A stretch of 64,000 nucleotides of DNA, taken from positions 124,001 through 188,000 of the forward strand of contig NZ_JASGBH010000007.1 in assembly GCF_030053395.1 (NCBI RefSeq), given 5' to 3'. Position 1 is the stretch's first letter. Every line of letters starts with the position of its first letter. The translations under genes and the position numbers were made by a program. This DNA is from Limnohabitans lacus (GTDB lineage: Bacteria > Pseudomonadota > Gammaproteobacteria > Burkholderiales > Burkholderiaceae_C). The notes beneath the pieces are model-generated. The model saw only the letters and a list, made by a program, of their open reading frames with translations. It did no database searches and was not told where the DNA came from. This document shows, one piece after another, positions 39,732-53,373 of the stretch.

Positions 39732-40040
39732 TTACCTCGCCCAGCTGGCCATCGCCGCACCAAGCGCCGACCCTGCCATCAGGTCAGGCCGGGCATAGAG
39801 CGCCACCTTGCGCTTGCAGCCGGGCTGGGGCACCTTGTCTGCCACCGTCAGCTCTTTGCGGGCAATGGCGCGGCAGATGGCGTTGTCGGCTTCTTTCATG
39901 GTCCAGCCCAAGCCACGCACCAGCTGGCCCATGGTGAAGCGTTCGTGGGCCGTGACCCACTGAGACAGCGCTTGGCGCTTTTGGCCTGCGGGGCGTCCGG
40001 GTTTTTTGTCGGTGGCGGTCATGGTCATGGTGCAGGTCAT
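39732..40040 (-). CDS. Small basic putative DNA-binding protein, 102 aa
   Basis: A basic N-terminus (TATDKKPGRPAGQKRQ) is followed by a winged-helix-like segment (RFTMGQLVRGLGWTMKEADNAICRAIARKELTV). It overlaps the CII-like gene by 4 nt at its start and ends 3 nt before the primase gene, so it is a genuine member of the early operon. It may help load the primase-helicase; that is inference. Confidence 0.55.
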   Translation of the reverse strand: MTCTMTMTATDKKPGRPAGQKRQALSQWVTAHERFTMGQLVRGLGWTMKEADNAICRAIARKELTVADKVPQPGCKRKVALYARPDLMAGSALGAAMASWAR

Positions 40041-40504
40041 GGGTGGTCCTCTGTGGTGGGTTTGCCCGCCTGGTTGCGGCGGGCCAGGGCTTCACGCAGG
40101 GGGCGCAGGCTGGCCATCAGTTCGCCGCACTCACGGTCAATGCGGGCCAGCTCGTTGTCGCTGATGGAGCCGTCTGCCAGATCTGTGGCGACCTCGGTGC
40201 ACAGATCGCCAAACTCACGGGCCGTGGTGGCCAGACGCACCATGCAGTCGTCGGCATCGGCGTTGAATGCGGCAGGCAGCGGCACCAGCATCTGGCCGCA
40301 GTTGAGGGCAAAGGCTTCCAGGATGCGCATATCGCCCGTGCGCAGGGTGATTTTTTCGGCATCAAGCAGGCCCAGCTTGGCAGCGCCCGTGCCATTGAGT
40401 TCGTGCGCCAAGGTGGTGGCGTTTTTACCGATGCGCGGGGCCAGGCTGGGCGCACCGCCCGGGTAGTCGTGCACCACGTTTGCGGCCACATCTCGAATAT
40501 CCAT
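40037..40504 (-). CDS. CII-like phage regulatory protein, 155 aa
   Basis: Resembles the Phage_CII (P2-type regulatory protein) family: DIRDVAANVVHDYPGGAPSLAPRIGKNATTLAHELNG includes the helix-turn-helix, and KLGLLDAEKITLRTGDMRILEAFA is typical of the following helices. In related phages the protein tips the lysis-lysogeny choice. I start at the ATG at 40504; the 128 codons upstream are another gene region. It lies second or third after cro, like lambda cII. Confidence 0.75.
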   Translation of the reverse strand: MDIRDVAANVVHDYPGGAPSLAPRIGKNATTLAHELNGTGAAKLGLLDAEKITLRTGDMRILEAFALNCGQMLVPLPAAFNADADDCMVRLATTAREFGDLCTEVATDLADGSISDNELARIDRECGELMASLRPLREALARRNQAGKPTTEDHP

Positions 40505-40517
40505 GATCACACCCCCA

Positions 40518-40724
40518 TCAAACTGTTGTGAAAGACAAAGCGGCCTGCAGCGAAGACACTGCAGCCATGAACAAAAACACCCGCCACCCCCAAACGCCAA
40601 GCAGCACAGGCCTGCCCGCCTGTGCCGAGAGTGGGCGAGTAAATTCCACCGGAGACGGCGGTGTTTGGGGATTGATGGCGGCGGGTGGGAAACTTGCAGC
40701 ACTTGGAGCAAATGCGTTGCGCAT
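40518..40724 (-). CDS. Small single-TM protein between cro and cII, 68 aa
   Basis: The ATG comes 1 nt after the Cro stop and the gene ends 13 nt before the CII-like start, so it fills the gap exactly. The N-terminal half is Pro/Ala-rich and the C-terminal half has one hydrophobic helix (GVWGWRVFLFMAAVSSLQAAL). Function unknown. Its spacing is the main evidence; an antisense frame of similar length exists on the plus strand. Confidence 0.45.
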   Translation of the reverse strand: MRNAFAPSAASFPPAAINPQTPPSPVEFTRPLSAQAGRPVLLGVWGWRVFLFMAAVSSLQAALSFTTV

Positions 40725-40725
40725 G

Positions 40726-40980
40726 TCAGGCGCCCTGCCCGTCTTGGCCGGCGGCTGGCTCGGCCAGCTCGGGCCAAACGTGGAGGAAAGTGTCTGGAAA
40801 GAGATCGCGCCGGGTCACCGCTCGCTCGGTGAACGCCTCGATAGCAGCACCGTGCACGATGGGCACCGAGCGCTTGCTGGTGACCCATTCAGAGACCACG
40901 GGAGGCTTGACCCCAAGGTGTTCGGCAAGCCGAACACGGCGACCAGCTACGGCATTGAGCCATTCAATAAATTTGTCCAT
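40726..40980 (-). CDS. Cro-like repressor (YdaS-type), 84 aa
   Basis: A compact helix-turn-helix protein (DKFIEWLNAVAGRRVRLAEHLGVKPPVVSEWVTSKRSVP) of the YdaS/Cro type. It is divergent from the CI-like gene and heads the leftward lytic operon. Its promoter has -35 TTGCAA and -10 TATGAT with a 17-bp spacer; the predicted start site falls almost on the ATG, so the message may be leaderless. Confidence 0.8.
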   Translation of the reverse strand: MDKFIEWLNAVAGRRVRLAEHLGVKPPVVSEWVTSKRSVPIVHGAAIEAFTERAVTRRDLFPDTFLHVWPELAEPAAGQDGQGA

Positions 40981-40986
40981 GCATCC

Positions 40987-41015
40987 ATCATAAGGCCAAG
41001 CCTAACAAATTGCAA
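40987..41015 (-). promoter_or_regulatory. Promoter of cro (pR-like)
   Basis: Minus-strand -35 TTGCAA (41010-41015), 17-bp spacer and -10 TATGAT (40987-40992). Operator O1 lies inside the spacer and operator O2 touches the -35, so bound repressor would block RNA polymerase. Confidence 0.75.
40991..41005. promoter_or_regulatory. Operator O1 (CI/Cro)
   Basis: TAAGGCCAAGCCTAA, an imperfect palindrome of the form TTAGGC-N3-GCCTAA, inside the cro promoter spacer. Its core AGGCCAAGCCTAA recurs exactly in operator O4. Confidence 0.7.
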
Positions 41016-41029
41016 TAGGTATTGCCTAA
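41015..41029. promoter_or_regulatory. Operator O2 (CI/Cro)
   Basis: ATAGGTATTGCCTAA, the more divergent copy of the palindrome, centred 24 bp from O1 and 13 nt before the CI start codon. Confidence 0.65.
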
Positions 41030-41042
41030 AAGGCCGCGACTC

Positions 41043-41528
41043 ATGAAAAATAAGGCAATGCTTGAAGGTAAAGAACTGGGCGCGGCCATCACATCCGCAA
41101 TGGAAAAAAAGAAGGTAGGCCCTACCGTCTTGGCCGCTGCTTTTGGCATCAAGCCGCCTTCGGTCAGCGACTGGAAGACACGCGGGTGTGTCAAAAAAAA
41201 TCACCTGCCTAAACTCATTGCCTATTTCAGCGATGTCGTAGGCCCTGAGCATTGGGGCCTGAACTCGGCTGAAAATGTGTTTGCGGTGCAGCCCAGCGCC
41301 CAACAGGAAAACCTTTCCCACAAGTTAATCCCGCCGGTCAACAATTACAAAGTAGCACTCGACACGCTTGCAGCGGGCCTAAGCGATCTGGATATGCAAG
41401 GCCGTGAACGCATCGCCCCGATGTTTGAAAGCTTCGCCAGATCGCCTGGACCTGTCTCAATTCAAGATATATTGGCCGTCCTCAGGCTCAACAGAAAAAG
41501 TGACGAAGACCTCACGCTGGCGGCGTGA
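41043..41528 (+). CDS. CI-like phage repressor without a peptidase domain, 161 aa
   Basis: The N-terminal 70 residues form a helix-turn-helix (TSAMEKKKVGPTVLAAAFGIKPPSVSDWKTRG). The rest is helical (YKVALDTLAAGLSDLDMQGRERIAPMF) with no S24/LexA Ser-Lys dyad, so RecA-stimulated self-cleavage is not expected. Its position, divergent from cro across paired operators, identifies it as the lysogeny repressor. I start at 41043, since it avoids overlapping the operators. Confidence 0.75.
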   Translation: MKNKAMLEGKELGAAITSAMEKKKVGPTVLAAAFGIKPPSVSDWKTRGCVKKNHLPKLIAYFSDVVGPEHWGLNSAENVFAVQPSAQQENLSHKLIPPVNNYKVALDTLAAGLSDLDMQGRERIAPMFESFARSPGPVSIQDILAVLRLNRKSDEDLTLAA

Positions 41529-41575
41529 AGGCAACATCTTTTTTTTGTCCTAAAAATTAACTTTTTTACTGCATT

Positions 41576-42352
41576 ATGCTAAAAATTAATATTTTATTGA
41601 TAAAATTAATTATATCAATCTCAATGACAATACACAGCAATGTTATTGCACAAGTATTCGATGCCACATGGACACAACTCCCAAAAACTTTTTCTGGTGA
41701 TTCTGTTAAAAATTTGGCGGAAAAACTTAATACAAGAAAAAATGAGTTTGAGTCCAACGCAGACTACAACGCACGTCTAGAAAAATTAGTAACACCACAT
41801 GATTATAAATATGTATTATTTTGCGAAGAAATCCCCTTTAAATTAGATTATGACGCTGACGCACAGGAATTTATATTTTCACGCAAATCATACAATGCGC
41901 ATATTGAAGTTGCAAAGACCAGTAAGGAAGGCAAACCATACACTGGAACAAATTCATTTGGGGTATCTAAAAAAATCCGAAAAATTGAAGTTCACGAATA
42001 TAATTTACATGATCAGGAGTGGCAAAACGATGCAGGGCAAGCATTTAAGTTTCCCTACCCGTCAATCCAGGCTGCTGCGTTGAAGAGTGACCTTGCCGTA
42101 GCACTAATCATCGAGCTTGCACCACACCGTCATTTTGGGAAAAGCTACAACTCTATGACGTCCCCTTTTTTTACACATAGCACATATTATTCTGAGCCGA
42201 CAATTAGCAACCCACTGGACTATATGAGCCATTCATATATTATTACAAGCAACATAAGAAATATTGTTTTATACAAAAAATCTGATCGGAAAATTCTTTT
42301 AATTACAACACCATCAAAAACTAAACAATCTTCTACATCACCGATCCAATGA
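41576..42352 (+). CDS. AT-rich exported protein of unknown function, 258 aa (moron candidate)
   Basis: The N-terminus is a Sec signal peptide (ILLIKLIISISMTIHSNVIAQ, cleavage likely after AQ). The mature protein has no motif I recognise; KTFSGDSVKNLAEKLNTRKNEFES and YNLHDQEWQNDAGQAFKFPYPS stand out. Codon use is strongly AT-rich compared with all its neighbours, which suggests recent transfer. It lies directly downstream of the CI gene on the same strand, the place of rexAB in lambda, so expression in the lysogen is plausible. Possible roles are envelope modification or exclusion; none is shown. Confidence 0.7.
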   Translation: MLKINILLIKLIISISMTIHSNVIAQVFDATWTQLPKTFSGDSVKNLAEKLNTRKNEFESNADYNARLEKLVTPHDYKYVLFCEEIPFKLDYDADAQEFIFSRKSYNAHIEVAKTSKEGKPYTGTNSFGVSKKIRKIEVHEYNLHDQEWQNDAGQAFKFPYPSIQAAALKSDLAVALIIELAPHRHFGKSYNSMTSPFFTHSTYYSEPTISNPLDYMSHSYIITSNIRNIVLYKKSDRKILLITTPSKTKQSSTSPIQ

Positions 42353-42598
42353 CACATGAATCTGCTCAGCAGCGCACACAGCCAGACTTCGCTCGGCTGC
42401 ATAACGCGCTTGACGAAGCAGCTGCAGCAGTTCGGCATGAACCGAGTCCAGGCACTGATCCGAAAATTGCGTTTGATCAGGCTCGGCTATGGCGGCAAAT
42501 TGAGCAGTTGCGCCTGGTAGCCCTAAAGCTTGAGCGTCGAGTTCAACAGTCAAACAAACGCTGATGCCGCGTGATTGTTCTGTGATTTTTAGTTTCAT
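42338..42598 (-). CDS. Hypothetical protein, 86 aa
   Basis: It begins MKLKITEQSRGISVCLTVELDAQALG and ends in an amphipathic helix (DSVHAELLQLLRQARYAAERS). It follows the 42609-43067 gene by 10 nt on the same strand, so the two probably form an operon. An opposite-strand frame (42349-42564) is also open and overlaps the exported-protein stop (ATGA); I prefer this one because of its codon use and operon position, but the choice is uncertain. Confidence 0.5.
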   Translation of the reverse strand: MKLKITEQSRGISVCLTVELDAQALGLPGATAQFAAIAEPDQTQFSDQCLDSVHAELLQLLRQARYAAERSLAVCAAEQIHVSLDR

Positions 42599-42608
42599 AA
42601 AAACTTTT

Positions 42609-43067
42609 TCAGTTAACTGCGCGCAGATCATCTTGCACAAAATTGGACCCGACCTCATTTGCAGCACAAGGATCATCTGTGACCCAACAATCTTCAACCT
42701 TCCACTGCCCAGTCTCGCGTGAAATCGTGACATTCACCGTCACATTCAGGCCATCTGTCCACTCAACCATGCCGCGCGTGCCGGTAGACAGAACGTGTTC
42801 AGGCATCAAGCTTTGCGGTGTGCTCCCCCCCTCTGGCGAAGGGGTACTGAACTGGTCGATTTGCCCGCTGAAAGAAAACGTCATGCGCTGAGACTCGGCA
42901 TCCATCTTCAGTGGTCCGAAGCGCCTGAAATACATTGGGAAAAACATCCCACTCGTAGGGCTCTCAAAAGCCACCCTGAAAACGCCTTGATCAGATGGGC
43001 CGCTGCGGTGCAGCTCAGAAGTGTTTGACTCTCCACCCACGGGTGGTTTTTTTTCGTCTGTTTGCAT
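42609..43067 (-). CDS. Hypothetical phage protein, 152 aa
   Basis: A beta-rich protein with segments TFSFSGQIDQFSTPS and GLNVTVNVTISRETGQWKVEDCWVTD. No family recognised. A good AGGAG site lies 7 nt before the ATG at 43067. It is divergent from the DGR operon, and a GC-rich inverted repeat (AACGCCCG / CGGGCGTT, 43085-43107) lies between its start and the operators, so it may share regulation with the DGR promoter. Confidence 0.6.
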   Translation of the reverse strand: MQTDEKKPPVGGESNTSELHRSGPSDQGVFRVAFESPTSGMFFPMYFRRFGPLKMDAESQRMTFSFSGQIDQFSTPSPEGGSTPQSLMPEHVLSTGTRGMVEWTDGLNVTVNVTISRETGQWKVEDCWVTDDPCAANEVGSNFVQDDLRAVN

Positions 43068-43125
43068 GTGAAAACTCCTGATTGAACGCCCGGACAGCTC
43101 GGGCGTTGAAGAATTTTCGCACAAA

Positions 43126-43140
43126 TTAGGCTTAGCCTAT
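43126..43140. promoter_or_regulatory. Operator O3 in front of the DGR operon
   Basis: TTAGGCTTAGCCTAT, a near-perfect copy of the CI/Cro palindrome. Its last base is the first base of the DGR promoter -35, the same contact O2 makes with the cro promoter. Confidence 0.7.
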
Positions 43141-43168
43141 TGACTAAACTTAGGCCAAGCCTAATAAT
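43140..43168 (+). promoter_or_regulatory. Promoter of the DGR/integrase early operon (pL-like)
   Basis: -35 TTGACT at 43140-43145 and a -10 region TAATAAT at 43162-43168 (16-17 bp spacer), 44 nt before the first DGR target gene. The spacer contains operator O4. Confidence 0.7.
43150..43164. promoter_or_regulatory. Operator O4 within the DGR promoter
   Basis: TTAGGCCAAGCCTAA, a perfect TTAGGC-N3-GCCTAA palindrome, centred 24 bp from O3. It begins 4 nt after the -35, exactly as O1 does in the cro promoter. Confidence 0.72.
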
Positions 43169-43211
43169 TCACTCCAACCCGCCACCTATCGGCGGATTTT
43201 TGGAGTGAAAC

Positions 43212-43595
43212 ATGCAAACCACCACCCTCTCTGCCCTCCCCGCTTTGGGCACACCGCTTGACGGCGGCATCTTTGTCGGCCTGGTCACCCAACCCGATGG
43301 CACCCACACCGCCGTGGCCCTGCTGCCCGACCGTGCCACCCGCCTGAACTGGCAAGCCGCCACCGACTGGGCCAGCGGGCTGAACGCCCAACTGCCCACG
43401 CGCCAGATGATGGCCGCGATCCGAGCCAACACGCAAGACCGCCCCCAGTCTGGATGGCTCTGGACCAGCGAGTCGCACGAAGAAGACGCCTCTTGCGCCT
43501 GGTATTGCTACTTCGACGACGGCGACCAGATCGGCTACCGCAAGAGCTACGAAGGCTCGGCTGTCGCCGTCCGCTTGATTCACATCACCGCTTGA
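43212..43595 (+). CDS. DGR variable protein 1 (C-type-lectin/DUF1566-like), 127 aa
   Basis: Target protein of the retroelement. The fold looks like the small C-type lectin (DUF1566) type: ALPALGTPLDGGIFVGLVTQPDG, then LNWQAATDWASGLNAQLPTRQMM and SGWLWTSESHEEDASCAW. The last 35 residues come from variable repeat 1. Residues changed relative to the template are 95, 98, 100, 102, 103, 105 and 107-110, which would form the ligand-binding surface. There is no signal peptide or membrane segment. It is the first gene after the pL-like promoter. The ligand and the site of display are unknown. Confidence 0.9.
   Translation: MQTTTLSALPALGTPLDGGIFVGLVTQPDGTHTAVALLPDRATRLNWQAATDWASGLNAQLPTRQMMAAIRANTQDRPQSGWLWTSESHEEDASCAWYCYFDDGDQIGYRKSYEGSAVAVRLIHITA
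43486..43574 (+). repeat. DGR variable repeat VR1 (89 bp)
   Basis: It differs from the template at 11 sites, all of them A in the template (7 A>G, 4 A>T); every other base is identical. The last 39 bases, from the AAG codon onwards, are unchanged and include the GC-rich end GGCTCGGCTGTCGCCGTCC that is the likely initiation-of-mutagenic-homing region. Confidence 0.95.
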
Positions 43596-43629
43596 TCCTT
43601 CAATCCTTTTTTTGACCGGAGGCACAGAC

Positions 43630-43800
43630 ATGACCTACCGCCAAGCGTTTGACCACTTGGGAAATCGCCGCAAAAACCACCGCTACGGCCCCGTGCGTCG
43701 CCACTATTTGGCCGTTTTGCGCCGCTGGCTGCTGGTGACACTGGGCATTGTGGCTTGGGCGGCATTGACCGCCGCCATCGACGCCAAGGTGCTGCCATGA
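43630..43800 (+). CDS. Small single-TM protein, 56 aa
   Basis: A basic N-terminus (RNRRKNHRYGPVRRHYLAVLRR) followed by one membrane helix (WLLVTLGIVAWAALTAAI). A strong GGAGG site precedes the ATG at 43630. It overlaps the next gene by 4 nt. Function unknown; it is expressed between DGR targets 1 and 2. Confidence 0.6.
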   Translation: MTYRQAFDHLGNRRKNHRYGPVRRHYLAVLRRWLLVTLGIVAWAALTAAIDAKVLP

Positions 43801-44117
43801 GGGCCACTGGAATGGTGTTTTTGAGCCGTGGCGGTGCACGCCTAAACAAGGACAGCAAGGGCGAGCCAACCGTGACATTGATGTGCCTTGATCGCATCGC
43901 CAACCACCAGGTGGAGTCTTGGGCCCTGTTTTGGAAGGGCCAGGACGCCGCCGACTTTTGGCAGCACAACGCCACCAAACTCCAACCCGGCACACCACTG
44001 AACGTGACGGTGGAGAACATGCGCTCACACACCGCAGGGCGCACGGTCGAGATCACAGCCCGCGTCATCGGCTGCGAACTGGCCCCCACCCCTGAAAAAA
44101 AGGCGGTCGCAGCATGA
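43797..44117 (+). CDS. Hypothetical phage protein, 106 aa
   Basis: A beta-rich protein (TVTLMCLDRIANHQVESWALFWKG, then PLNVTVENMRSHTAGRTVEITARVIGCEL) reminiscent of an OB-fold, so a nucleic-acid-binding role is possible but not shown. I start at the ATG at 43797, which overlaps the previous stop; the longer ORF lies inside that gene. Confidence 0.6.
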   Translation: MRATGMVFLSRGGARLNKDSKGEPTVTLMCLDRIANHQVESWALFWKGQDAADFWQHNATKLQPGTPLNVTVENMRSHTAGRTVEITARVIGCELAPTPEKKAVAA

Positions 44118-44440
44118 AGCCACCTAGCCGCCCCGAGTGGCTGCGGAGTCACCCTCGCTTTCGACCAGCGTGCTTTACGCCCGAAGAGTGGGAGCTTTGG
44201 CGCAAGGGTGCGATGGAGCTGGCGCTCAAACGCTATCCACCACAAAGCCCTTGCGAAGACTGCACACCAGAACACCAAGCCGCCATGGTGACCGCCAAGC
44301 GATGCGACCACCCTGATGTGGTTTTCAAAACTGATTCACACGGATTTGTCTGTGGCGTTCGGCCCAAGCCAGAAACCACCGAAACAGCGCAGCAACCCAC
44401 TCCAACAAGAAGAGGAAGGCCCCAAAAAAATGACCATTGA
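44114..44440 (+). CDS. Hypothetical Cys-containing phage protein, 108 aa
   Basis: A basic, Pro-rich protein with RFRPACFTPEEWELWRKGAMELALKRYPPQ and a cluster CEDCTPEHQ...RCDHPD that could bind zinc. The C-terminus is basic (RRGRPQKNDH), so DNA binding is possible. It overlaps both neighbours. Confidence 0.55.
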   Translation: MKPPSRPEWLRSHPRFRPACFTPEEWELWRKGAMELALKRYPPQSPCEDCTPEHQAAMVTAKRCDHPDVVFKTDSHGFVCGVRPKPETTETAQQPTPTRRGRPQKNDH

Positions 44441-44615
44441 AATCACAACCGAAGTCGCATCCATCGCACAAATTGAGGCCCGCGCCCGCGAAGCCGCACA
44501 GATGTACGACAGCTTGATCGACGCCTGCCCCTACCCCCTGCATAGCACCAGCGCACGGGTGTTTGCCCAGGCGTTTGAGCAGGCCCGCGCCGAAGCACCG
44601 CAAAGCCTCGCATGA
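44430..44615 (+). CDS. Hypothetical helical protein, 61 aa
   Basis: A small acidic helical protein (VASIAQIEARAREAAQMYDSLIDACPYPL). The ATG at 44430 overlaps the previous gene by 11 nt and the stop overlaps the next gene by 4 nt. No family recognised. Confidence 0.5.
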   Translation: MTIEITTEVASIAQIEARAREAAQMYDSLIDACPYPLHSTSARVFAQAFEQARAEAPQSLA

Positions 44616-44914
44616 CCACCACCTACGCCAACGCCGCACTGCTGCTGGTCAGCACCTTCGCCCTGGTGTTTTCGCTGGGGCTGCAAAGCCAGCTGGTGAA
44701 CAACGGCCACTTTGTGGGCGCATTCATTAACTCGTTGGCCATTGGCACCGCCAACCTGGTGCTGTTCAAGCTGGCCCCCACAGCCAGCGGCATCGAGATT
44801 GCGTGCTACCTGATCGGCGGGCCATTCGGCATCGTTTGCAGCATGACGGCGTACCGCTGGATGCGCTCTCGCCAAACCCATTTTTTCACCACCAAAGGAG
44901 GCTCCAATGCCTGA
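44612..44914 (+). CDS. Three-helix membrane protein, 100 aa
   Basis: Membrane segments are at about residues 7-26, 36-55 and 61-83, and the C-terminus is basic. It directly precedes DGR target 2 with an 8-nt overlap. It could be a membrane partner for the variable proteins or an unrelated phage inner-membrane protein; I see no family signature. Confidence 0.55.
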   Translation: MTTTYANAALLLVSTFALVFSLGLQSQLVNNGHFVGAFINSLAIGTANLVLFKLAPTASGIEIACYLIGGPFGIVCSMTAYRWMRSRQTHFFTTKGGSNA

Positions 44915-45320
44915 GACCACAAGCACCACCAAAACCATCATTTCAGTCAGCTTCGCCAACCTGCCCGCCTTGGGCGCTCCACTTGACGGCGGCATTTTTG
45001 TCGGCGTCATCACACAGCCAGACGACACGCACAGTGCCGTCACGCTGCTGCCAGACCGGGCACAAGACCTGGCTTGGCAAGCCGCCAAGGACTGGGCAGA
45101 AAGCCTGAATGCCCAGATGCCCACGCGCCCCATGGCCGCACTGATCTTTGCCAACACCCAAGACCGCCCGCAGACAGGCTGGCACTGGACCAACGAAGAG
45201 CACAAAGACCACGCCTCTTGCGCCTGGTATTGCTACTTCGACTACGGCAGCCAGATCAACTTCCACAAGAGCTACGAAGGCTCGGCTGTCGCCGTCCGCT
45301 TGATTCACATCACCGCTTGA
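44907..45320 (+). CDS. DGR variable protein 2 (C-type-lectin/DUF1566-like), 137 aa
   Basis: A close paralogue of variable protein 1: ALGAPLDGGIFVGVITQPDD, AWQAAKDWAESLNAQMPTRP and NTQDRPQTGWHWTNEEH all line up. The N-terminus is about 10 residues longer (PETTSTTKTIISVSFANLP). The 3' part is variable repeat 2. An AAAGGAGG ribosome-binding site lies just before the ATG, so it should be well translated. VP1 and VP2 also share an identical tail after the repeat (LIHITA), pointing to recent duplication. Confidence 0.9.
   Translation: MPETTSTTKTIISVSFANLPALGAPLDGGIFVGVITQPDDTHSAVTLLPDRAQDLAWQAAKDWAESLNAQMPTRPMAALIFANTQDRPQTGWHWTNEEHKDHASCAWYCYFDYGSQINFHKSYEGSAVAVRLIHITA
45211..45299 (+). repeat. 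DGR variable repeat VR2 (89 bp)
   Basis: It differs from the template at 9 sites, all template A (3 A>G, 6 A>T). Two template codons (one AAC and the CAC) are unchanged here, showing that mutagenesis is incomplete per round. The non-A bases are all identical to the template. Confidence 0.95.
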
Positions 45321-45348
45321 TCCTTCAATCCTTTAACCCGGAGAAACC

Positions 45349-45813
45349 ATGAACGCCATCACCATCCCGATCGAGGTTGAATTGACCCCGCGCAGCAAAG
45401 CCGTTATGGATGCGCTGTATCAGGCCATTGCGCCTCAATTCCAGTCGCCACCACCCGCTGCAACACCCGCCATCGAATTGCAACCAGGCGAGCACTACGC
45501 AGGCGTGGTGTTGGACACCGAAGGCAAAGTCATGCACCACCTGGTGCTGATGGCCAAAAAACCCACGAGCAAGCTCAACTGGCAAGACGCCATGGATTGG
45601 GCCACCAGCGCAGGTGGTCATCTGCCCACACGGCAAGAGCAAGCCTTGCTCTACGCCAACTGCAAACCATACCTGCAGCCCGTGTGGCACTGGTCCTGCG
45701 AGTCGCATGAAGAAGACGCCTCTTGCGCCTGGGGTTGCCTCTTCCTCAGCGGCTACCAGAACTGCAACCGCAAGAGCTACGAAGGCTCGGCTGTCGCCGT
45801 CCGCAGATTCTGA
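45349..45813 (+). CDS. DGR variable protein 3 (C-type-lectin/DUF1566-like), 154 aa
   Basis: A more distant paralogue of the other two targets. It has its own N-terminal extension (about residues 1-45, TIPIEVELTPRSKAVMDALYQAIAP), then the shared fold (YAGVVLDTEGKVMHHLVLM, LNWQDAMDWATSAGGHLPTRQEQALL, WHWSCESHEEDASCAW). The protein ends two residues after the constant VAVR, so the variable repeat reaches nearly to the stop. It has no signal peptide. It immediately precedes avd and the RT. Confidence 0.9.
   Translation: MNAITIPIEVELTPRSKAVMDALYQAIAPQFQSPPPAATPAIELQPGEHYAGVVLDTEGKVMHHLVLMAKKPTSKLNWQDAMDWATSAGGHLPTRQEQALLYANCKPYLQPVWHWSCESHEEDASCAWGCLFLSGYQNCNRKSYEGSAVAVRRF
45716..45804 (+). repeat. 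DGR variable repeat VR3 (89 bp)
   Basis: It differs from the template at 12 sites, all template A (6 A>G, 4 A>T, 2 A>C). It is the only copy with A>C changes. Identity with the template continues 4 bases past the common end (CGC then AGAT), further than in VR1 and VR2. Confidence 0.95.
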
Positions 45814-45852
45814 TTTCTTCAGTCCTTCAATCCTTTTGACTTGAGCCCCACC

Positions 45853-46215
45853 ATGGCACTGCATACCGATTTGCCCATTTACCGCACAGGCGTGCGGCTG
45901 CTGGATCTGGCCATCAAAGTCCAGGTGCAAATGCCGCGCACCGTCAAACGCGCACTGGGCGAGAAGATCACCCAGCACTGCGTGGACATGCTGGATCTGA
46001 TGGCCTTAGCCAACGCCACTCAACGCGACGTGCGCGCTGGCCACATTGACCAGCTATTGACCCGCCAGCGGGCGGTGACTGTGCTGCTGCGCGTGAGCCA
46101 CGACAGCCGATACCTGTCACCCAAGCTGTGGGCTGACTCTATCGAGTTGCTGGGCAGCATCGGCAAGCAGGCGGGTGGCTGGCTCAAGACAGCGAACAAG
46201 GCGCCTGCTGTATGA
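45853..46215 (+). CDS. avd: DGR accessory variability determinant (Avd)
   Basis: Avd is a pentameric four-helix-bundle protein that binds the RT and template RNA and is needed for mutagenic homing. The sequence fits the four-helix family: LPIYRTGVRLLDLAIKVQVQMPRTVKRALGEKI at the start, then helices LDLMALANATQRDVRAG and TRQRAVTVLLRVSHDSRYL and a basic end. I start at the ATG at 45853, giving 120 aa; a TTG at 45841 is an alternative. Its stop overlaps the RT ORF's ATG (ATGA), so RT translation may be coupled to it. Confidence 0.85.
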   Translation: MALHTDLPIYRTGVRLLDLAIKVQVQMPRTVKRALGEKITQHCVDMLDLMALANATQRDVRAGHIDQLLTRQRAVTVLLRVSHDSRYLSPKLWADSIELLGSIGKQAGGWLKTANKAPAV

Positions 46216-47576
46216 CGGTCAAGGCCCTCATACCCGTGCGCACAGTGAATCTGGTCGCGCCCCTGGCCTACAAGGCCACGGCCATGCACACCACAGAAAC
46301 GGCAGCGCACGCGCACTGCACGTCTGGTGCAGCCACCACCCTGATCGGCGCAAGCCTTCGGGGTGGCAGCGTGTCAAGCGCGATAGGTACGCCTCTTACG
46401 CCTGGAATTGCAACTTCAACAACGGCAACCAGAACAACAACCACAAGAGCTACGAAGGCTCGGCTGTCGCCGTCCGCAGATCCACACTTGTTCCACCAAC
46501 TGGTGCAAGCCTACCTCGACTGCCGCCGCACCAAGCGCAATAGCGCCAGTGCGCTGGCTTTCGAGGCGCAGGCCGAGCACAACCTGCTGCAACTGCATGA
46601 CGAACTGGCCTCTGGCACCTACCAGCCTGGGCAGTCTGTTTGCTTTGTCATCACCCACCCACGAGCCCGCGAGGTGTGGGCTGCTCAGTTTCGTGACCGC
46701 ATCGTGCACCACCTGCTTTACAACCAGATCGCGCCACGGTTTCATGCCCGATTCACAGCCGACAGCTGCGCCTGTATTCCGGGCCGTGGCACGCTGTACG
46801 CAGCCAAGCGGCTGGAGCACCAGGTGCGCAGCATCACCCGCAACTGGAGCCAGCCAGCGCATTACCTCAAATGCGACTTGGCCAACTTCTTTGTCAGCAT
46901 CGACAAGGCCGTGTTGCTGGAGCAACTGCAACGCCAAGTGACCGAGGCATGGTGGATGGAGCTGGCCACCTTGGTGCTGATGCACGACCCGCGCCACGAT
47001 GTGCGCGTGCACGGCAGCAAGGCCGAACTGGCGCTGGTGCCCGCACACAAAAGCTTGTTCAACGCGCCAGATGGCCACGGCCTGCCCATAGGCAACTTGA
47101 GCAGCCAATTCTTTGCCAATGTGCTGCTGAACGACCTAGACCAATTTGCCAAACACCAACTGCGCGCACCGCACTATGTGCGCTACGTCGATGACTTTGT
47201 GTTGCTGCACCAAAGCCCCCAATGGCTCAACGCAGCACGCCAGCGCATCGAAGCCAAGCTGACCGTCCTGCACCTGCAAATCAACCCACGTAAGACGGTG
47301 CTGCAGCCCGTGGCGCGTGGCATTGACTTTGTGGGCCAAGTCATCAAGCCATGGCAGCGCACCACTCGGCGCAAAACACTGCGCACAGCCATGGACCGAC
47401 TGACCGACATGCCAACCGAAGACCTGCACCAAGCAGGCAATAGCTACTTTGGACTACTGCGCCAAGCCACCCACAGCCACCACGACCGCGCACGACTGGC
47501 CAAGCTGCTGCTGCAGCGCGGGCACGCCGTTAAGGCCGACATGACCAAGATTTATCCACAAAGGAAAAGCGCATGA
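46212..47576 (+). CDS. DGR reverse transcriptase
   Basis: It copies the template-repeat RNA with errors at adenines. Numbered from the ATG at 46212 (454 aa), motif A has LKCDLANFFVSID with Asp222, motif B is GLPIGNLSSQFF (residues 291-301; IGxxxSQ is the DGR hallmark) and motif C is RYVDDFV with Asp327-Asp328. No maturase or other domain is attached. The template repeat lies inside the first 90 codons in this frame, where the translation is a Thr/Ala-rich string unlike an RT, so the real start may be the TTG at 46488 or the GTG at 46503, giving about 360 aa. parB follows with a 4-nt overlap. Confidence 0.93.
   Translation: MTVKALIPVRTVNLVAPLAYKATAMHTTETAAHAHCTSGAATTLIGASLRGGSVSSAIGTPLTPGIATSTTATRTTTTRATKARLSPSADPHLFHQLVQAYLDCRRTKRNSASALAFEAQAEHNLLQLHDELASGTYQPGQSVCFVITHPRAREVWAAQFRDRIVHHLLYNQIAPRFHARFTADSCACIPGRGTLYAAKRLEHQVRSITRNWSQPAHYLKCDLANFFVSIDKAVLLEQLQRQVTEAWWMELATLVLMHDPRHDVRVHGSKAELALVPAHKSLFNAPDGHGLPIGNLSSQFFANVLLNDLDQFAKHQLRAPHYVRYVDDFVLLHQSPQWLNAARQRIEAKLTVLHLQINPRKTVLQPVARGIDFVGQVIKPWQRTTRRKTLRTAMDRLTDMPTEDLHQAGNSYFGLLRQATHSHHDRARLAKLLLQRGHAVKADMTKIYPQRKSA
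46389..46477 (+). repeat. DGR template repeat (TR, 89 bp)
   Basis: The matched 89 bp has 26 adenines, 17 of which are changed in at least one variable repeat. Most are in AAC/AAT codons of the frame shared with the targets, the arrangement that lets A-mutation reach many residues but never a stop codon. It lies between avd and the RT catalytic region, as in typical DGRs. The base before it (T at 46388) already differs from the VRs (G, C, G), which sets the 5' boundary; the 3' boundary may extend 4 bases for VR3. Confidence 0.95.
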
Positions 47577-49696
47577 CCACCTTCACCCAAGCCCCCCTCG
47601 CCCTGATCGTGCCCAGCACGACCAACCCACGCAAGACCTTTGACGCGCCCAAGCTGGCCGAGCTGACCGCCAGCATCGCGGCCATGGGCGTGCACCAGCC
47701 TGTGCTGCTGCGACCCCTGCCTGCGCACCGCCTTGAGGACACGGCACGCCTGCAACCCCGGCCGGAATATGAGTTGGTGTGCGGTGAGCGCCGCTACCGT
47801 GCCAGCTTGGCTGCCAAGATGCTGACCATCCCCGCGATGGTGCGCGACCTGACCGACGACCAGGTGCTGGAGATCCAGATCGTTGAGAACTTGCAGCGTG
47901 ACGATCTAACCGAGCTGGAAGAAGCCGAAGGCTACGAAGCCTTGATGAAACACAGCAACCTGAACGCCGACCAGGTGGCCGCAAAGATCGGCAAAAGCCG
48001 CAGCTATGTGTATGGCCGCTTGAAGCTGCTCGACTTGTGCCAAGAGGCCCGCACCAGTCTGCGCGACCGCACCATCGACGCCAGCCGCGCGCTGGTGGTG
48101 GCCCGCATCCCTGACGAAAAGTTACAGATCAAGGCGATGAAGGAGATCGTGGCCGGTGATCGCTACTTCACCGGCATCAAAGAGCCCATGACCTACCGCG
48201 TGGCTTTGCAGCATGTGCAGCAAAATTACATGCTCAACCTGAGCACGGCCAAGTTCAAGATCACCGACGAAAGCCTGCTGGAAGGCGCGGGCAGCTGCAA
48301 GACCTGCACCAAGCGCACCGGCCACGACCCGGACTTGTTTGCCGACATCAAAGGTGCAGATGTGTGCACCGACCCGCCTTGCTTCCACCGCAAGGAAGAA
48401 GCCCACACCGCCCAGCTGGTGGAAGCTGCCAAGGCCAAGGGCCAGACAGTGATCACCGGCAAAGAAGCCGCCGAGCTGCGTGGCGCGGGCTACCAAGACA
48501 AGTTCACCGGCTACCGCCGCTTGGACGATGCCGCCGACAGCCCCACCGACCAGCCGCTGCGCAAGATCATCGGCGGGCTGATGAAGCAAGAAGGCATCAA
48601 GCCCGTGGCCATCGAGCACCCCAGCAAGAAAGGCACGCTGGTGGAATGCCTGCCCAACGAGGTGGCGCTGCGCTTGCTGAAGATGGCCGAGAAGCTGAGC
48701 CAAACCGAGCCCAAGGCCAGCAAGGAAGTGCAGGAGCTGGTGAGCGCCAAGAAGGCCAAGGCCGAAGAAAAAGCCAAAGGGCAGTTTGAGCAAGGCTGGC
48801 GGGACACGCTGGTGGTGGACACGTGGCGCGAACTGCAAGACAGCAGTGGGACGTTTTCAAACGACGTGCACCGCTACCTTGTTGTGCGTGCCGCCAGGAG
48901 CCTGAGCACCGACAACGCCGAGGCGATCTGCAAGGTCTTGAACTTGGGCAAAGTGTCGCCTGTCACCGCCGTGGTCGACCACGCCAAAGAAACCGAGCGA
49001 CCCGACCAACTGCACATGCTGATCATCATGCAAGAAGCCAGCAGCGCTTACGGGCACAGCTACAACGGCACGGCCAACGAAGGCTTGATGCTGATCGCTG
49101 GCAAGGTCTTTCACGACCAACTGAAGCGCGTGATCGAGGACATCAAGCTGGAAACGAAGGCCAAAGTTTGGCCCAAAGCCGACGAAAAACCGCAAAAAGC
49201 GCCCACCGCGACCGCCCCTGCTGCGCAAGCGGAGGGGGGCGGGGGGGAGGCTAAAAAATCAAAGGCTGCGCTCCGCGCACCGAAGCCGAAGCTGCGTGCC
49301 GAAGCTGCAATGCAAGGCATCGCTGCCGCGCTGCAAGACGAAGAAGCCCGGGGCGACTTCGCCCCGGGGAGTTATCTAGGCGCTGACGCGCAAGGCAACG
49401 AAGTCGGGCCTGCTTCGCGTCCCGACGAGCCCCTGCAAACGGCTGTGGATGATCAAGCGGACATGGCCCCAGGTAAGGGGGCTAAGCCAGCGGGGCAGAT
49501 CAAGCGGTCTGACGCATTGCTGGAGGATGCGGTCGAGCTGGTCAAGGCCGAGCAAGCCGTGAGCGTGCGCCTGATCAAAGCCAACCTGAGCGTGGGCACC
49601 ACACGCGCCATGAAGATCATTGACGAGTTGGAGCGTGATGGTGTGGTGTCCAAGGTGGACGGCAACGGTGCGCGGAAAGTGTTGGTGGCAGCATGA
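47573..49696 (+). CDS. ParB/Spo0J-like nucleoid-binding protein, 707 aa
   Basis: The N-terminal ParB/sulfiredoxin-like domain (VPSTTNPRKTFDAPKLAELTASIAAMGVHQPVLLR, then LVCGERRYRASLAA) is followed by a helix-turn-helix (NADQVAAKIGKSRSYVYGRLKLLDLC, about residues 130-160). A Cys-containing segment (GSCKTCTKRTG...CTDPPCF) at about 240-265 may bind metal. A long charged, Ala/Lys-rich linker (about 530-610) leads to a C-terminal winged-helix FtsK-gamma-like domain (LVKAEQAVSVRLIKANLSVGTTRAMKII). There is no ParA, so plasmid-style partition is unlikely; a role in phage replication or gene regulation fits better. Confidence 0.8.
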   Translation: MTTFTQAPLALIVPSTTNPRKTFDAPKLAELTASIAAMGVHQPVLLRPLPAHRLEDTARLQPRPEYELVCGERRYRASLAAKMLTIPAMVRDLTDDQVLEIQIVENLQRDDLTELEEAEGYEALMKHSNLNADQVAAKIGKSRSYVYGRLKLLDLCQEARTSLRDRTIDASRALVVARIPDEKLQIKAMKEIVAGDRYFTGIKEPMTYRVALQHVQQNYMLNLSTAKFKITDESLLEGAGSCKTCTKRTGHDPDLFADIKGADVCTDPPCFHRKEEAHTAQLVEAAKAKGQTVITGKEAAELRGAGYQDKFTGYRRLDDAADSPTDQPLRKIIGGLMKQEGIKPVAIEHPSKKGTLVECLPNEVALRLLKMAEKLSQTEPKASKEVQELVSAKKAKAEEKAKGQFEQGWRDTLVVDTWRELQDSSGTFSNDVHRYLVVRAARSLSTDNAEAICKVLNLGKVSPVTAVVDHAKETERPDQLHMLIIMQEASSAYGHSYNGTANEGLMLIAGKVFHDQLKRVIEDIKLETKAKVWPKADEKPQKAPTATAPAAQAEGGGGEAKKSKAALRAPKPKLRAEAAMQGIAAALQDEEARGDFAPGSYLGADAQGNEVGPASRPDEPLQTAVDDQADMAPGKGAKPAGQIKRSDALLEDAVELVKAEQAVSVRLIKANLSVGTTRAMKIIDELERDGVVSKVDGNGARKVLVAA

Positions 49697-50202
49697 GCCG
49701 CAACAAAAAACCCCGCAAAGCCTACCGCCCCAAGGCCATGACCACCGATACGCTTGGGCTGGCCCTGCACTTTGCGGCCAAGCCCACCCAGCAAGACCGC
49801 GCCGAGGTGCTGGGCCTGCTGCGCCAAGCCATCCAGGCGCTGCGCCAAGGCGTGGCCACCGAGCACGATTGGTCTGTGGCCGCTGGCAGCGTGACCGTGG
49901 CACAGGCCATCGAGCGCCAAGGCATCGTGCGCGGCCTGCATGAGCACATCGCCACCACCGATAAGGCGCTGCAGACGATCTACGACCGCGCCATGCGCAC
50001 GGGCGCGTGGTGCCGCACAGCGCTGTGGTTCAACGAAATGGATGCGCTGGCCAACTTCTTGGAGATCCACGCCTTCCAGGTCGACCAGCTGGGCCGCAAA
50101 GAAATGCTGGCCGCGATTGACGAAGCCCATAAACAAACCCTTGCCCAGGGGCATACCGCCACGCTGGTGCACAACATTGACGCAGAAAGGATGGCCGCAT
50201 GA
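49693..50202 (+). CDS. Hypothetical phage protein, 169 aa
   Basis: A helical protein with LGLALHFAAKPTQQDRAEVLGLLRQAIQALRQG and DALANFLEIHAFQVDQLGRKEMLAAID. The family recurs in phage early regions, but I do not know the function. It overlaps parB and the next gene by 4 nt each. Confidence 0.6.
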   Translation: MSRNKKPRKAYRPKAMTTDTLGLALHFAAKPTQQDRAEVLGLLRQAIQALRQGVATEHDWSVAAGSVTVAQAIERQGIVRGLHEHIATTDKALQTIYDRAMRTGAWCRTALWFNEMDALANFLEIHAFQVDQLGRKEMLAAIDEAHKQTLAQGHTATLVHNIDAERMAA

Positions 50203-50543
50203 CCACGAAACACGACCCCTACGCCAGCGAAGAAGAAACCAAAGCCCTGCTGGTGCCGGACACACGCACGGACGCAGAGCGCAAGCTGGACCAAATGATG
50301 ACCGAGCGAGGCGCTGATGAACAGGGTGCGGAACCAAGCCTGATCTTGCGCCAGATCGCGCTGGAGCTGCTGGACTCAGCGCCACCGGCTTACCCATGCG
50401 AGGTCATTCAAGCCGACTTCGGAGACAACACCGTGACGCTCCAAATGATGAACAGCAACTTCAAAGTTTCATCTGGGCTGTATCACCTGTCAAAAGCCCC
50501 CGTCACCAACCCACCAAGCCCAAAAAATCATGGAGACATTTGA
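50199..50543 (+). CDS. Hypothetical phage protein, 114 aa
   Basis: An acidic N-terminus (YASEEETKALLVPDTRTDAERKLDQMM) is followed by EVIQADFGDNTVTLQMMNSNFKVSSGLY, which looks like a small beta fold. It is coupled to its neighbours by overlaps. No function assigned. Confidence 0.55.
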   Translation: MTTKHDPYASEEETKALLVPDTRTDAERKLDQMMTERGADEQGAEPSLILRQIALELLDSAPPAYPCEVIQADFGDNTVTLQMMNSNFKVSSGLYHLSKAPVTNPPSPKNHGDI

Positions 50544-50775
50544 TGCTGTCACTCTTTTCCTCTCGGGCGTCTCGCTCGGACTCGTCATCGGCCACTGGCT
50601 CTGCAAGCGCACAGACGTGCCACTCGCATACCAGCGAGGCCGAGCAGACGGCTTCAACGAACTTTGGCCCCACGTGGTCAGATGCTGGGTCAAGGACATC
50701 CAATCTGATCGCGTCGCAAGCGCCCGAAGTGAAGCAACTGGTGGTGCTGGCAGCGACACAAAAACTGTTCACTAA
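50530..50775 (+). CDS. Small single-TM protein, 81 aa
   Basis: One membrane helix near the start (AVTLFLSGVSLGLVIGHWLC) and a cytoplasmic tail containing AYQRGRADGFNELWPHV. It overlaps the next gene heavily in another frame. Its composition looks more protein-like than the overlapping part of that frame. Confidence 0.45.
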   Translation: METFDAVTLFLSGVSLGLVIGHWLCKRTDVPLAYQRGRADGFNELWPHVVRCWVKDIQSDRVASARSEATGGAGSDTKTVH

Positions 50776-50998
50776 GAGCTATTTCGACATCTCCAATTTG
50801 CGCGAGATTGCAGAGCTGATTGACGCCCCCACCAAGGGTGGCGCATGGGCCATGTTGCAGCCGTTGCACTACGTTGACTACGCCGACATGCCGCCCATGC
50901 TGCGCGAGGCTATTCCGCACCTGGTCAACGAATGCCTGACCGCCCGAGAGCGGGCGGCTACAGACGTCTTTACCGCACTGAAAGGGGTGAGCCTGTGA
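50543..50998 (+). CDS. Hypothetical phage protein (start uncertain)
   Basis: The C-terminal 90 residues look coding (KLFTKSYFDISNLREIAELIDAPTKGG, PHLVNECLTARERAATDVFTAL). The N-terminal 60 residues overlap the TM gene and are Ser/Thr-rich like a shadow frame, so the real start may be the GTG at 50729, which would give 89 aa. The ATG at 50543 does overlap the previous stop (TGATG). Confidence 0.5.
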   Translation: MLSLFSSRASRSDSSSATGSASAQTCHSHTSEAEQTASTNFGPTWSDAGSRTSNLIASQAPEVKQLVVLAATQKLFTKSYFDISNLREIAELIDAPTKGGAWAMLQPLHYVDYADMPPMLREAIPHLVNECLTARERAATDVFTALKGVSL

Positions 50999-51246
50999 GC
51001 ACGCTAGTCAAAATCAACGTCAAGGTCGTGAACCGCACCGACTTGGCCATCCTCGTCAACGACGGCCGCCGTGAAGCGTGGGTGCCGCTCAGCCAGGTGG
51101 ACGAAGAGATCGAGGAGCCCACACCCCCGCTGGGCATCGTGGCCACCACCGCCATCGTGGTGCAAGACTGGGTGGCCACCGAGAAGGGCTTGCAGCCGAG
51201 CCAGCAGGATGACGCGACGATGGATTTGTTTGGGGGCGAGGCGTGA
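50995..51246 (+). CDS. Hypothetical phage protein, 83 aa
   Basis: The GTG at 50995 overlaps the previous stop. A beta-rich N-terminus (VKINVKVVNRTDLAILVNDG) is followed by an acidic linker and a C-terminal DDATMDLFGGEA peptide that could act as a short binding motif. Family unknown. Confidence 0.55.
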   Translation: MSTLVKINVKVVNRTDLAILVNDGRREAWVPLSQVDEEIEEPTPPLGIVATTAIVVQDWVATEKGLQPSQQDDATMDLFGGEA

Positions 51247-51746
51247 CCCACCCACCCATCCTCGACGCCTGCTGTGGCAGCCGAATGATGTGGTTTGACC
51301 GCAAAAACCCGAACGTGCTGTTTGCCGACCGACGAAGCGAGACGATCACTGTCACCGACCGCTCCCATGGAAACGCCTCGGGCACGCGCACCATCCACAT
51401 AGCGCCTGACACTTTGATGGACTTTCGCGCCATGCCCTTTCCCGATGAAACCTTCAAGCTGGTGGCGTTTGACCCGCCGCACCTAGTGCAGGCTGGCCCT
51501 AAAAGCTGGCTGGCAGCCAAGTACGGCAAGCTCAGCGACAACTGGCGCGAAGACCTGAACAAGGGCTTTGCAGAGTGCTTTCGCGTGCTGGAGCCCCATG
51601 GCGTGCTGGTCTTTAAGTGGAACGAAACTCAGGTGAAGCTGCGTGAAGTTCTGGCCCTGACACCACACCAACCACTGTTTGGCAACACCTCTGGAAAAAA
51701 AGCCGGCACCCACTGGCTTGTCTTTATGAAAGGCACCACACCATGA
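51243..51746 (+). CDS. Putative phage DNA methyltransferase (class I SAM), 167 aa
   Basis: The N-terminal SAM site (ILDACCGSRMMWFD) and a catalytic-type motif FDPPHLVQAGPKSW (DPPH, at about residue 78) resemble small N4/N6 MTase-like proteins of phages, although DPPH replaces the common DPPY. PHGVLVFKWNETQVKLREVL matches the final Rossmann strand. It may modify phage DNA together with the Dam at 9.1 kb. Confidence 0.75.
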   Translation: MTHPPILDACCGSRMMWFDRKNPNVLFADRRSETITVTDRSHGNASGTRTIHIAPDTLMDFRAMPFPDETFKLVAFDPPHLVQAGPKSWLAAKYGKLSDNWREDLNKGFAECFRVLEPHGVLVFKWNETQVKLREVLALTPHQPLFGNTSGKKAGTHWLVFMKGTTP

Positions 51747-52144
51747 CCCCCAAACGCGGCCTAACCCACGCCGAGGCCATGGCGTACGTGGGCGTGAAGC
51801 GCCGCACCTTTGACGAGGTGTGGCGTCCCAAGCTGGTGGGCATGCGTCAAGGCGCGTGCATGGTGTTTGACCGGCTGGATCTAGACCGGCTGTTTGACCA
51901 GTTCAAACAAGAGGCCGCTGGCCAGCCCGTGGCGGCCAACGATTCGACAAGCCCGGCCAGCACGGCGCACAATGGCGACCGGAACGAACGGCCCGCCATT
52001 CAAAAAGGAGAGAAATCATGGGCCAAAAAACAAGGGGCATCTACCCCGACACAAACGGGCTATGGCAGGTTGACAAGTGGAAGCGTGGCACTCGATTTCG
52101 CCAGCGCGGCCTCGCGAGCTATGACGAAGCGGAACGCTGGCTGA
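51743..52144 (+). CDS. Excisionase-like HTH protein, 133 aa
   Basis: Residues about 6-55 form a MerR/Xis-type helix-turn-helix (GLTHAEAMAYVGVKRRTFDEVW, ACMVFDRLDLDRLFDQF). The rest is low-complexity and overlaps the integrase start by 127 nt in another frame. Its position just before the integrase suits a recombination directionality factor. Confidence 0.65.
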   Translation: MTPKRGLTHAEAMAYVGVKRRTFDEVWRPKLVGMRQGACMVFDRLDLDRLFDQFKQEAAGQPVAANDSTSPASTAHNGDRNERPAIQKGEKSWAKKQGASTPTQTGYGRLTSGSVALDFASAASRAMTKRNAG

Positions 52145-53196: not shown

Positions 53197-53206
53197 AAAT
53201 GGAAAA

Positions 53207-53234
53207 AGCCCTAGAACATCACTGTTCTAGGGCT
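53207..53234 (-). terminator. Phage-supplied terminator for tRNA-Arg
   Basis: A perfect 12-bp stem (AGCCCTAGAACA / TGTTCTAGGGCT) with a 4-nt loop and a T run on the minus strand, 8 nt beyond the tRNA 3' end. It replaces the host terminator now stranded at 8591-8618 and would also end int transcription from the other side. Confidence 0.8.
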
Positions 53235-53239
53235 AACCA

Positions 53240-53286
53240 TTTGGTGCGGCTGGCAGGAATCGAACCCACGACCCCTTGGTTCGTAG
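53240..53286. repeat. attR (47-bp core)
   Basis: Identical to 8625-8671. Here the phage copy of the 3' half is joined to the host 5' half, so the tRNA-Arg gene is intact. Confidence 0.93.
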
Positions 53287-53318: not shown

Positions 53319-53373
53319 ATCATGCATCGAATTATAGCAAGCTTTTCAGGGCAGTTTTGGGCGGCCCCTCAAT

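Follow-up and report, generated by a model that had tools for sequence, protein, structure and literature searches.

How does a diversity-generating retroelement (DGR) operate when its template lies within the reading frame of its own reverse transcriptase (RT), and what does it diversify when its targets sit far from the tail genes of the phage that carries it? Both questions are raised by a prophage of Limnohabitans lacus (assembly GCF_030053395.1, contig NZ_JASGBH010000007.1). The window analyzed here, a stretch of 64,000 nt, covers positions 124,001-188,000 of that contig, and within it the cassette occupies 43212-47576 (all coordinates are those of the window). The element is very probably a complete prophage DGR whose RT and Avd protein copy the RNA of a single template repeat (TR), misread its adenines, and rewrite the ends of three lectin-fold genes early in the phage cycle.

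A first-pass annotation, made from the sequence letters, had described one TR, one Avd, and one DGR-type RT serving three target genes, and its coordinates hold. Alignment of the four repeats places the 89-bp TR at 46389-46477 and the variable repeats (VRs) at 43486-43574 (VR1), 45211-45299 (VR2), and 45716-45804 (VR3), all on the forward strand. The VRs have 11, 9, and 12 mismatches to the TR, respectively, and 32 out of 32 are opposite TR adenines, with the 63 non-adenine positions of the TR unchanged in every VR. The 17 distinct variable sites (46398-46443) are all among the 26 adenines of the 89 TR bases – a pattern with a chance of 4e-12 if the sites are independent – and, read in the target frame, most variable codons are AAC or AAT. 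The last 34 TR bases (46444-46477) are identical in the four copies and include six adenines (at 46445-46456), forming an end like the initiation of mutagenic homing (IMH) site. A TR search of the whole 3.15-Mb genome returned only the four repeat copies below E 0.05, and found no VR in the tail-fibre genes. VR1 and VR2 have six substitutions and an identical 3' flank in common, and so are not fully independent rewrites. The three lectin-like genes do contain the 89-bp repeats, but they do not end in them as first described, because their stop codons lie 6-18 bases further on.

The avd gene (45853-46215, forward strand) codes for 120 aa that match PF22296 (bAvd) over its cut-off (E 5e-11) and phrog_3206 (E 2e-21); the match to NF033474 (E 6e-11) is below threshold, scoring 42.5 against an NCBIfam cut-off of 80. 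Avd is common but not universal among DGRs. The RT carries the IGNLSSQ and YVDD motifs already seen in the first pass, the former in place of the QGG..SP of group II-type enzymes. It matches phrog_1423 at E 4e-110, and a genome-wide Pfam search found a single RT matching the model. The closest solved structure by sequence is 8ub7 (E 5e-35, the next being at 1e-8), which is identical in sequence to BPP-1 Brt. Phylogeny had been named in the first pass as the test of this assignment, and it places the RT among the DGR enzymes, Brt of BPP-1 included, and separate from those of retrons and group II introns: in a tree of 42 rows, 29 of the 30 DGR-labelled rows, including Brt and the window RT, form one branch (support 97/98), and seven group II and five retron RTs fall outside it. 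The 30th DGR-labelled row (DGRout_L018) is a wrong open reading frame (ORF) without RT motifs and is not counted. From the RT branch, the adenine-only TR/VR mismatches, and the presence of Avd we judge the cassette to be a genuine DGR.

For comparison, related loci were gathered from genomes (27 loci), viral contigs (80), unnamed relatives, and phage records, in collections that partly overlap, and were scanned for TR/VR pairs with TR adenines allowed to vary. Among the 99 loci with RT identity of at least 47%, window included, 71 have two targets, ten have three, eight have one, and in ten none was found; these counts are limited by the flanks, with some contigs ending near the RT. DGRs with three and four VRs were listed by DiGReF as early as 2012 (PMC3521204), and with three targets in ten of the 99 loci the view that this number is unusual does not stand; we do not count it as a novel point. 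With ORF starts assigned mechanically, median target length is 146 aa in loci with at least 69% RT identity, 175 aa at 55-69%, and 185 aa at 47-55%. In four loci at 47-49% RT identity (L110, L125, L127, and L130) the single target found is 503-676 aa long, the size of a tail fibre, and the target class seems to have changed within the lineage. On two contigs of one metagenome-assembled genome (L033 and L034) the best avd match ends ~1.3 kb upstream of the RT and the VR scan was negative; these are possibly rearranged or decayed DGRs.

Close relatives vary as expected of an active element. Nine non-identical pairs of loci that are more than 93% identical were compared without gaps over about 2.55 kb (eight further pairs are identical throughout and uninformative). 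In the two closest pairs together, 54 of the 56 differences are in VRs and 52 at TR adenines. L055 (= L057) and L056 differ at 15 positions, all in VRs and 14 at TR adenines, with 0/2368 elsewhere; phage Haboob (L006) and L097 differ at 41, of which 39 are in VRs and 38 at TR adenines, with 2/2340 elsewhere. The remaining pairs have the same VR excess over a higher background (29/87 for L096/L099, 18/116 for L119/L127, 20/140 for L030/L070, 22/168 for L111/L118, and 24 of 174 for L086/L049 and L037/L049). This pattern indicates that the DGR lineage is active.

Beside the template is a structured RNA, RT-15 (RF03018; 46199-46390, forward strand), which overlaps the avd stop and the RT start and ends at the start of the TR. 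The match is full-length, at 166.3 bits (E 3e-41) against a gathering cut-off of 82 bits, and it is the only family returned by an Rfam scan of 43000-48000 up to E 0.5, in which Phage_DGR (RF03022) was not found. RT-15 was found at the TR in 14 of 36 Rfam-scanned loci (7/8, 5/18, and 2/10 in the individual sets) plus the window; the misses include L039, which starts ~70 bases before the RT, and BPP-1, and most of the others are distant DGRs. A scan of 369 genomes of the class, with stricter filters, found RT-15 in this genome alone. The distance from the end of RT-15 to the TR start is -8 to +3 nt in 11 loci (window included), whereas that from TR to RT ranges from 97 to 144. Two-sided compensatory changes occur at 33 of 49 consensus pairs of the fold in an alignment of 59 of the 76 available stretches. 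Rfam lists RF03018 merely as RT-15 RNA (type Gene; sRNA), with no DGR label, and the family takes its name from nearby RTs. Among the papers listed by searches of an open-access collection we found none linking RT-15 or RF03018 to DGRs, and an earlier link may be in print. By its position and conservation RT-15 appears here to be tied to DGR templates.

The RT reading frame (46212-47576, forward strand; 454 codons) begins at an ATG that overlaps the avd stop (ATGA), such that codons 1-59 coincide with RT-15 and codons ~60-89 with the TR, and the RT domain starts at codon ~93. In 32 of 32 loci whose RT identity reaches 69%, a set that counts the window and some duplicates, the ATGA overlap is in frame and open. 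From 66% upwards it is present in 37 of 41 loci, and the leader takes eleven lengths between 264 and 300, each divisible by 3. Across 27 distinct sequences there are no stops in frame 0, 104 in frame 1, and 36 in frame 2 (L102 is too short and was left out of the codon analysis). Column-independent shuffles of leader plus TR, which ignore kinship, have a mean of ~10 stops, and none of 500 reaches the observed zero. The amino acids of the leader appear to be unconstrained (dN/dS 0.82; pN 0.206, pS 0.242), and the TR has a dN/dS of 1.34 in the RT frame versus 0.34 in the VR frame, with the RT itself at 0.285. Coding-type evolution begins just after the TR, where synonymous change is not reduced, the first RT codons having a pS of 0.41-0.49, like the rest of the gene. 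In a structural model of the RT (mean pLDDT 57), used solely to judge the leader, the first nine ten-residue blocks have mean pLDDT values of 24-35, without confident structure. The TR is likely to be translated as part of the RT; on the simplest view, ribosomes cross the leader and template and only openness of the frame matters. Overlap of TR and RT ORF is already in print as DiGReF group 3, one of several layouts (PMC3521204), and the portions of that paper on layouts hold no test of frame conservation that we could find; TRs are reported to be intergenic in most DGRs (PMC8144416). In one relative, L077 (~6368-6994), the TR is 329-433 bases before the RT, where ~100 is usual, and still no stop interrupts the frame between the ATG that overlaps avd and the RT.

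The sequences that follow the VRs also differ from the BPP-1 pattern. A GC-rich hairpin after the VR is reported to be conserved in phage DGRs (PMC3240598), but no GC-rich 7-10 bp hairpin of the BPP-1 type was found 4-34 bp after any of the three VRs, and the longest perfect stem in 60 bases is 4 bp; the same scan recovers the BPP-1 hairpin (8 bp, GAAA loop). Close relatives have stems of at least 7 bp in 2/58 flanks; the figure is 14/79 for loci with RT identities of 55-69% and 16/19 for those at 47-55%, the split VRs of L104 being entered twice in these counts. Each VR is followed by a 12-nt motif, CTTCAATCCTTT, at 43598-43609 (VR1), 45323-45334 (VR2), and 45825-45836 (VR3), on the forward strand. 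At up to two mismatches the motif is found in 55 of 58 distinct close VR flanks, in none of 31 TR flanks, and in 0.7% of shuffled flanks; in more distant groups it is present in 17/79 and 7/31 VR flanks. At up to one mismatch, it occurs in the 64-kb window solely after the three VRs. We infer that CTTCAATCCTTT is a candidate replacement for the hairpin as a cis-acting target signal, and it may have a role in translating the next gene.

The layout departs from that of BPP-1 in three tested respects: a fold on the 5' side of the TR, a TR that forms part of the RT frame, and the lack of a target hairpin. The two elements share the order avd-TR-RT, a VR at the target 3' end, and related RTs (30% identical), and variation in BPP-1 is adenine-specific (PMC12875486), as it is here. 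In BPP-1 (mtd, avd, TR, brt; NC_005357), however, the TR follows avd directly, a 144-nt spacer that matches Rfam Phage_DGR separates it from brt, RT-15 was not found, and the target is a tail protein with a GC-rich 8-bp hairpin after the VR. The BPP-1 spacer recruits RT and Avd and primes cDNA synthesis, and a motif in the end of avd stops the cDNA (PMC12875486); with its fold preceding the TR, the window has the mirror image of that layout.

Nearer counterparts are found among named phages, and the cassette is a further member of a lineage already known from them. Burkholderia phage Magia (MT701587) has the same order of avd, RT-15, TR, and RT, and its RT shares 60% identity across 98% of the frame, a span that takes in the leader. 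It also has small lectin-fold targets in its early region, one of which is the first gene after the repressor and on the repressor's strand. Our scan identifies three VRs in Magia, and genes 47 and 57 are the two targets given when the phage was announced (PMC7883833); it differs from the window in that its avd stop has no ATGA overlap. Pseudomonas phages Haboob and Cruim01 and Shewanella phage QDWS also have this cassette order with RT-15 at the TR, with RTs 59-61% identical to that of the window, and the Cruim01 record itself annotates an RT-15 feature. Haboob differs in having a stop between avd and TR in the RT frame, with the first start codon inside the TR.

Target 1 (43212-43595; 127 aa) is predicted to be a single C-type-lectin-like domain throughout (AlphaFold2 pLDDT 86), and the best PDB match of its model is the C-terminal domain of Legionella Lcl (8q4e; E 0.003, probability 1.00, TM 0.60). 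Target 2 (44907-45320; 137 aa) is 72% identical to target 1 with a weak Lcl_C match, and target 3 (45349-45813; 154 aa), which is conserved in relatives, matches Lcl_C at E 0.001, below the Pfam cut-off. The fold is assigned by model and PDB match for target 1 and by alignment only for targets 2 and 3, and the VRs are predicted to lie at the C-terminal end of C-type-lectin-fold proteins, the position by which a DGR is recognized. All three genes are on the forward strand, and, as the first-pass annotation had it, they are small and belong to an early-type operon that is not adjacent to the tail genes; near them are genes for a repressor, a ParB-like protein, and a methyltransferase, and the virion gene block lies elsewhere. 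No strongly hydrophobic stretch is present in any of them (largest 19-residue mean, 1.33). Lacking an evident signal peptide and encoded apart from the virion genes, the targets would be binding proteins that act early inside the cell, not adhesins of the tail. An anti-defence role is speculation, hinted at by the methyltransferase in the window and by a methylase and host nuclease inhibitor in QDWS; a PADLOC search of target 1, the only target searched, gave no match.

A promoter-like sequence, TTGACT-17-AATAAT (43140-43168, forward strand), lies just upstream of target 1 and is the best-scoring forward-strand site in 40000-53400. Two perfect copies of TTAGGCNNAGCCTA, at 43126-43139 and 43150-43163, overlap it as candidate operators, and two poorer copies (with 1 and 2 mismatches) are located at 40991-41029 between two divergent regulator genes. 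One of these is a Cro/repressor-like gene (40726-40980, reverse strand; phrog_35 transcriptional repressor, E 6e-12), and the other a probable prophage repressor gene (41043-41528, forward strand; phrog_8008 DNA-binding, E 7e-4) without a Pfam match. At up to one mismatch, all matches to TTAGGCNNAGCCTA in the window sit at the two promoters; at up to two there are 13 on both strands of the window, against a shuffled mean of 1.9. An earlier operator pattern with four free middle bases gave 26 matches against a mean of 17, weakly above chance. Because TTAGGCNNAGCCTA copies are present both at the DGR promoter and in the regulator region, the DGR operon is predicted to be an early-type operon under prophage repressor control. 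Such an arrangement would resemble the left operon of lambda.

Other accounts of the locus can be weighed against these data. That the RT belongs to a retron, a defence system, or a group II intron and merely lies beside a gene family is scarcely conceivable; weak PADLOC and NCBIfam matches to such models are what speak for it, yet they score far under the cut-offs (group II, 96.7 bits versus 300; retron St85, 47.5 versus 235), and we reject it on these scores together with the tree, IGNLSSQ, and the adenine-only TR/VR pattern. Decay of the cassette, with the VRs as relics and no remaining function in this prophage, is very improbable. Duplication or conversion would leave substitutions and a 3' flank in common, as VR1 and VR2 have; against this, all frames are open, YVDD is present, none of the 63 non-adenine positions has drifted in any VR, and close relatives vary like an active DGR.

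The two remaining alternatives accept an active DGR and dispute how it works or what it is for. In one, the element is an ordinary DGR of the BPP-1 type, with the RNA that loads and primes the RT hidden in the first RT codons and RT-15 only an mRNA leader that tunes RT translation. The relationship of the RT to Brt, the recruiting and priming role of the BPP-1 3' spacer (PMC12875486), and the position of RT-15 across the avd stop and RT start, a site suited to translational control, are all in keeping with it. We nonetheless consider it improbable, because the Rfam family that matches the BPP-1 spacer was not found here up to E 0.5, the first RT codons evolve as the rest of the gene does, and RT-15 keeps a nearly constant distance to the TR and a variable one to the RT. 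In the other, all three lectins serve as adhesins of the virion, being produced early or assembled from a gene far away, and the cassette shifts host range as in BPP-1. This is somewhat less improbable, though still unlikely: in clades 1, 4, and 6 most targets of viral DGRs carry tail-protein annotations (PMC8144416), and some distant RT relatives carry targets of tail-fibre size, but the targets here are only 127-154 aa with no strongly hydrophobic stretch, their neighbours are regulatory, ParB-like, and methyltransferase genes and not the tail block at 11-24 kb, and the tail-fibre genes carry no VR.

We favour a different arrangement, in which the transcript would start at 43140-43168 and be held down by the prophage repressor, such that diversification follows infection or induction. 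Ribosomes finishing avd would restart at the overlapping ATG and pass through RT-15 and TR into the RT, and a single RNA would serve as either message or template, with the leader staying open while its amino acids are free to change. The fold that BPP-1 has in its 3' spacer would here be placed 5' of the TR, where RT-15 probably serves to load RT and Avd and likely also acts as a stop that sets the cDNA end, and the IMH-like end and the downstream CTTCAATCCTTT would likely mark the targets in place of the hairpin. A bolder version, in which RT-15 would form the 5' part of a separate, second class of DGR template RNAs that mirrors the BPP-1 type – with upstream loading of RT and Avd, competition of translation and templating on one RNA, replacement of the hairpin by a 12-nt linear motif, and a phage repressor that times diversification of small intracellular proteins, not tail adhesins, in early infection – is put forward tentatively, as a possibility somewhat short of probable.

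Several observations weigh against the favoured arrangement. For the leader alone, where shuffles average 2.3 stops, the observed zero is matched by 31 of 500 shuffles, and the signal comes mostly from the TR. Read-through is bound to a lineage: an open TR with an upstream ATG is present in 31 of 31 TR-bearing loci at RT identities of at least 69%, in 25 of 44 at 55-69% (37 open), in 11 of 14 at 47-55% (12 open), and in 3 of 13 below that (6 open). At less than 66% identity the ATGA overlap is often out of frame (for example in L016, L079, L085, L087, L094, and L101), and a GTG just inside the RT domain, common in relatives, could serve as a later start. RT-15 falls below the Rfam cut-off in loci such as L042 and L107 (52% RT identity) and in more distant DGRs, and a scan for duplexes between RT-15 and the TR end, run without a control, gave scattered sites, none of them consistent. 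The operator and VR-flank motifs were derived from the same sequences in which they were counted, the prophage repressor gene is only weakly matched, and activity belongs to the relatives, that of this prophage being judged by comparison.

The prophage itself (8625-53286) lies between two copies of a 47-bp direct repeat (8625-8671 and 53240-53286), located at a tRNA-Arg gene, and is apparently a 44.7-kb element with a complete gene set; integrase, terminase, portal, head, tape measure, tail, and lysis genes are all present. Genes up to ~34 kb on the reverse strand include those for terminase, portal, head, tape measure, tail, and lysis, with the tail block at 11-24 kb, and the forward-strand DGR is flanked by the repressor and integrase, with ParB-like and DNA methyltransferase genes downstream of it. 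The ParB-like gene (47573-49696, forward strand), which has a C-terminal FtsK gamma domain, is the next gene in the operon, directly downstream of the RT; its relatives are found at varying locations in 33 of 120 related loci and, among the best matches listed, mostly just downstream of the RT. The operon ends with a tyrosine integrase gene (52018-53196, forward strand; PF00589, phrog_1). A DNA methyltransferase gene is located at 51243-51746, and a second methyltransferase-like gene (9096-9881) adjoins attL.

Between the repressor and the DGR operon is an ORF of 258 aa (41576-42352) with a hydrophobic N-terminus, in a region crowded with promoter-like matches; searches of PHROGs, PADLOC, and NCBIfam gave no family match, and it looks like a cargo gene. 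A reverse-strand ORF at 42609-43124, ahead of the DGR promoter, likewise gave no family match in searches. Five small ORFs between targets 1 and 2 match at most 3 of 120 related loci, within flanks of limited length, and as they thus lie outside the cassette, a conserved membrane partner among them was considered and rejected.

DGR mechanism has been worked out on BPP-1, with a 3' spacer RNA that loads the enzyme and primes cDNA (PMC12875486). The lineage described here occurs in many phages and prophages of proteobacteria; it appears to manage without such a spacer and to have a conserved fold on the opposite side of the TR, which in its closest members appears to sit inside a translated frame. 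If this is true, cDNA priming and stopping, and the choice between translation and templating on one RNA, become testable by comparing the two layouts, and the Rfam family RT-15 gains a likely role. A DGR acting on small early proteins would extend phage hypermutation beyond host attachment.

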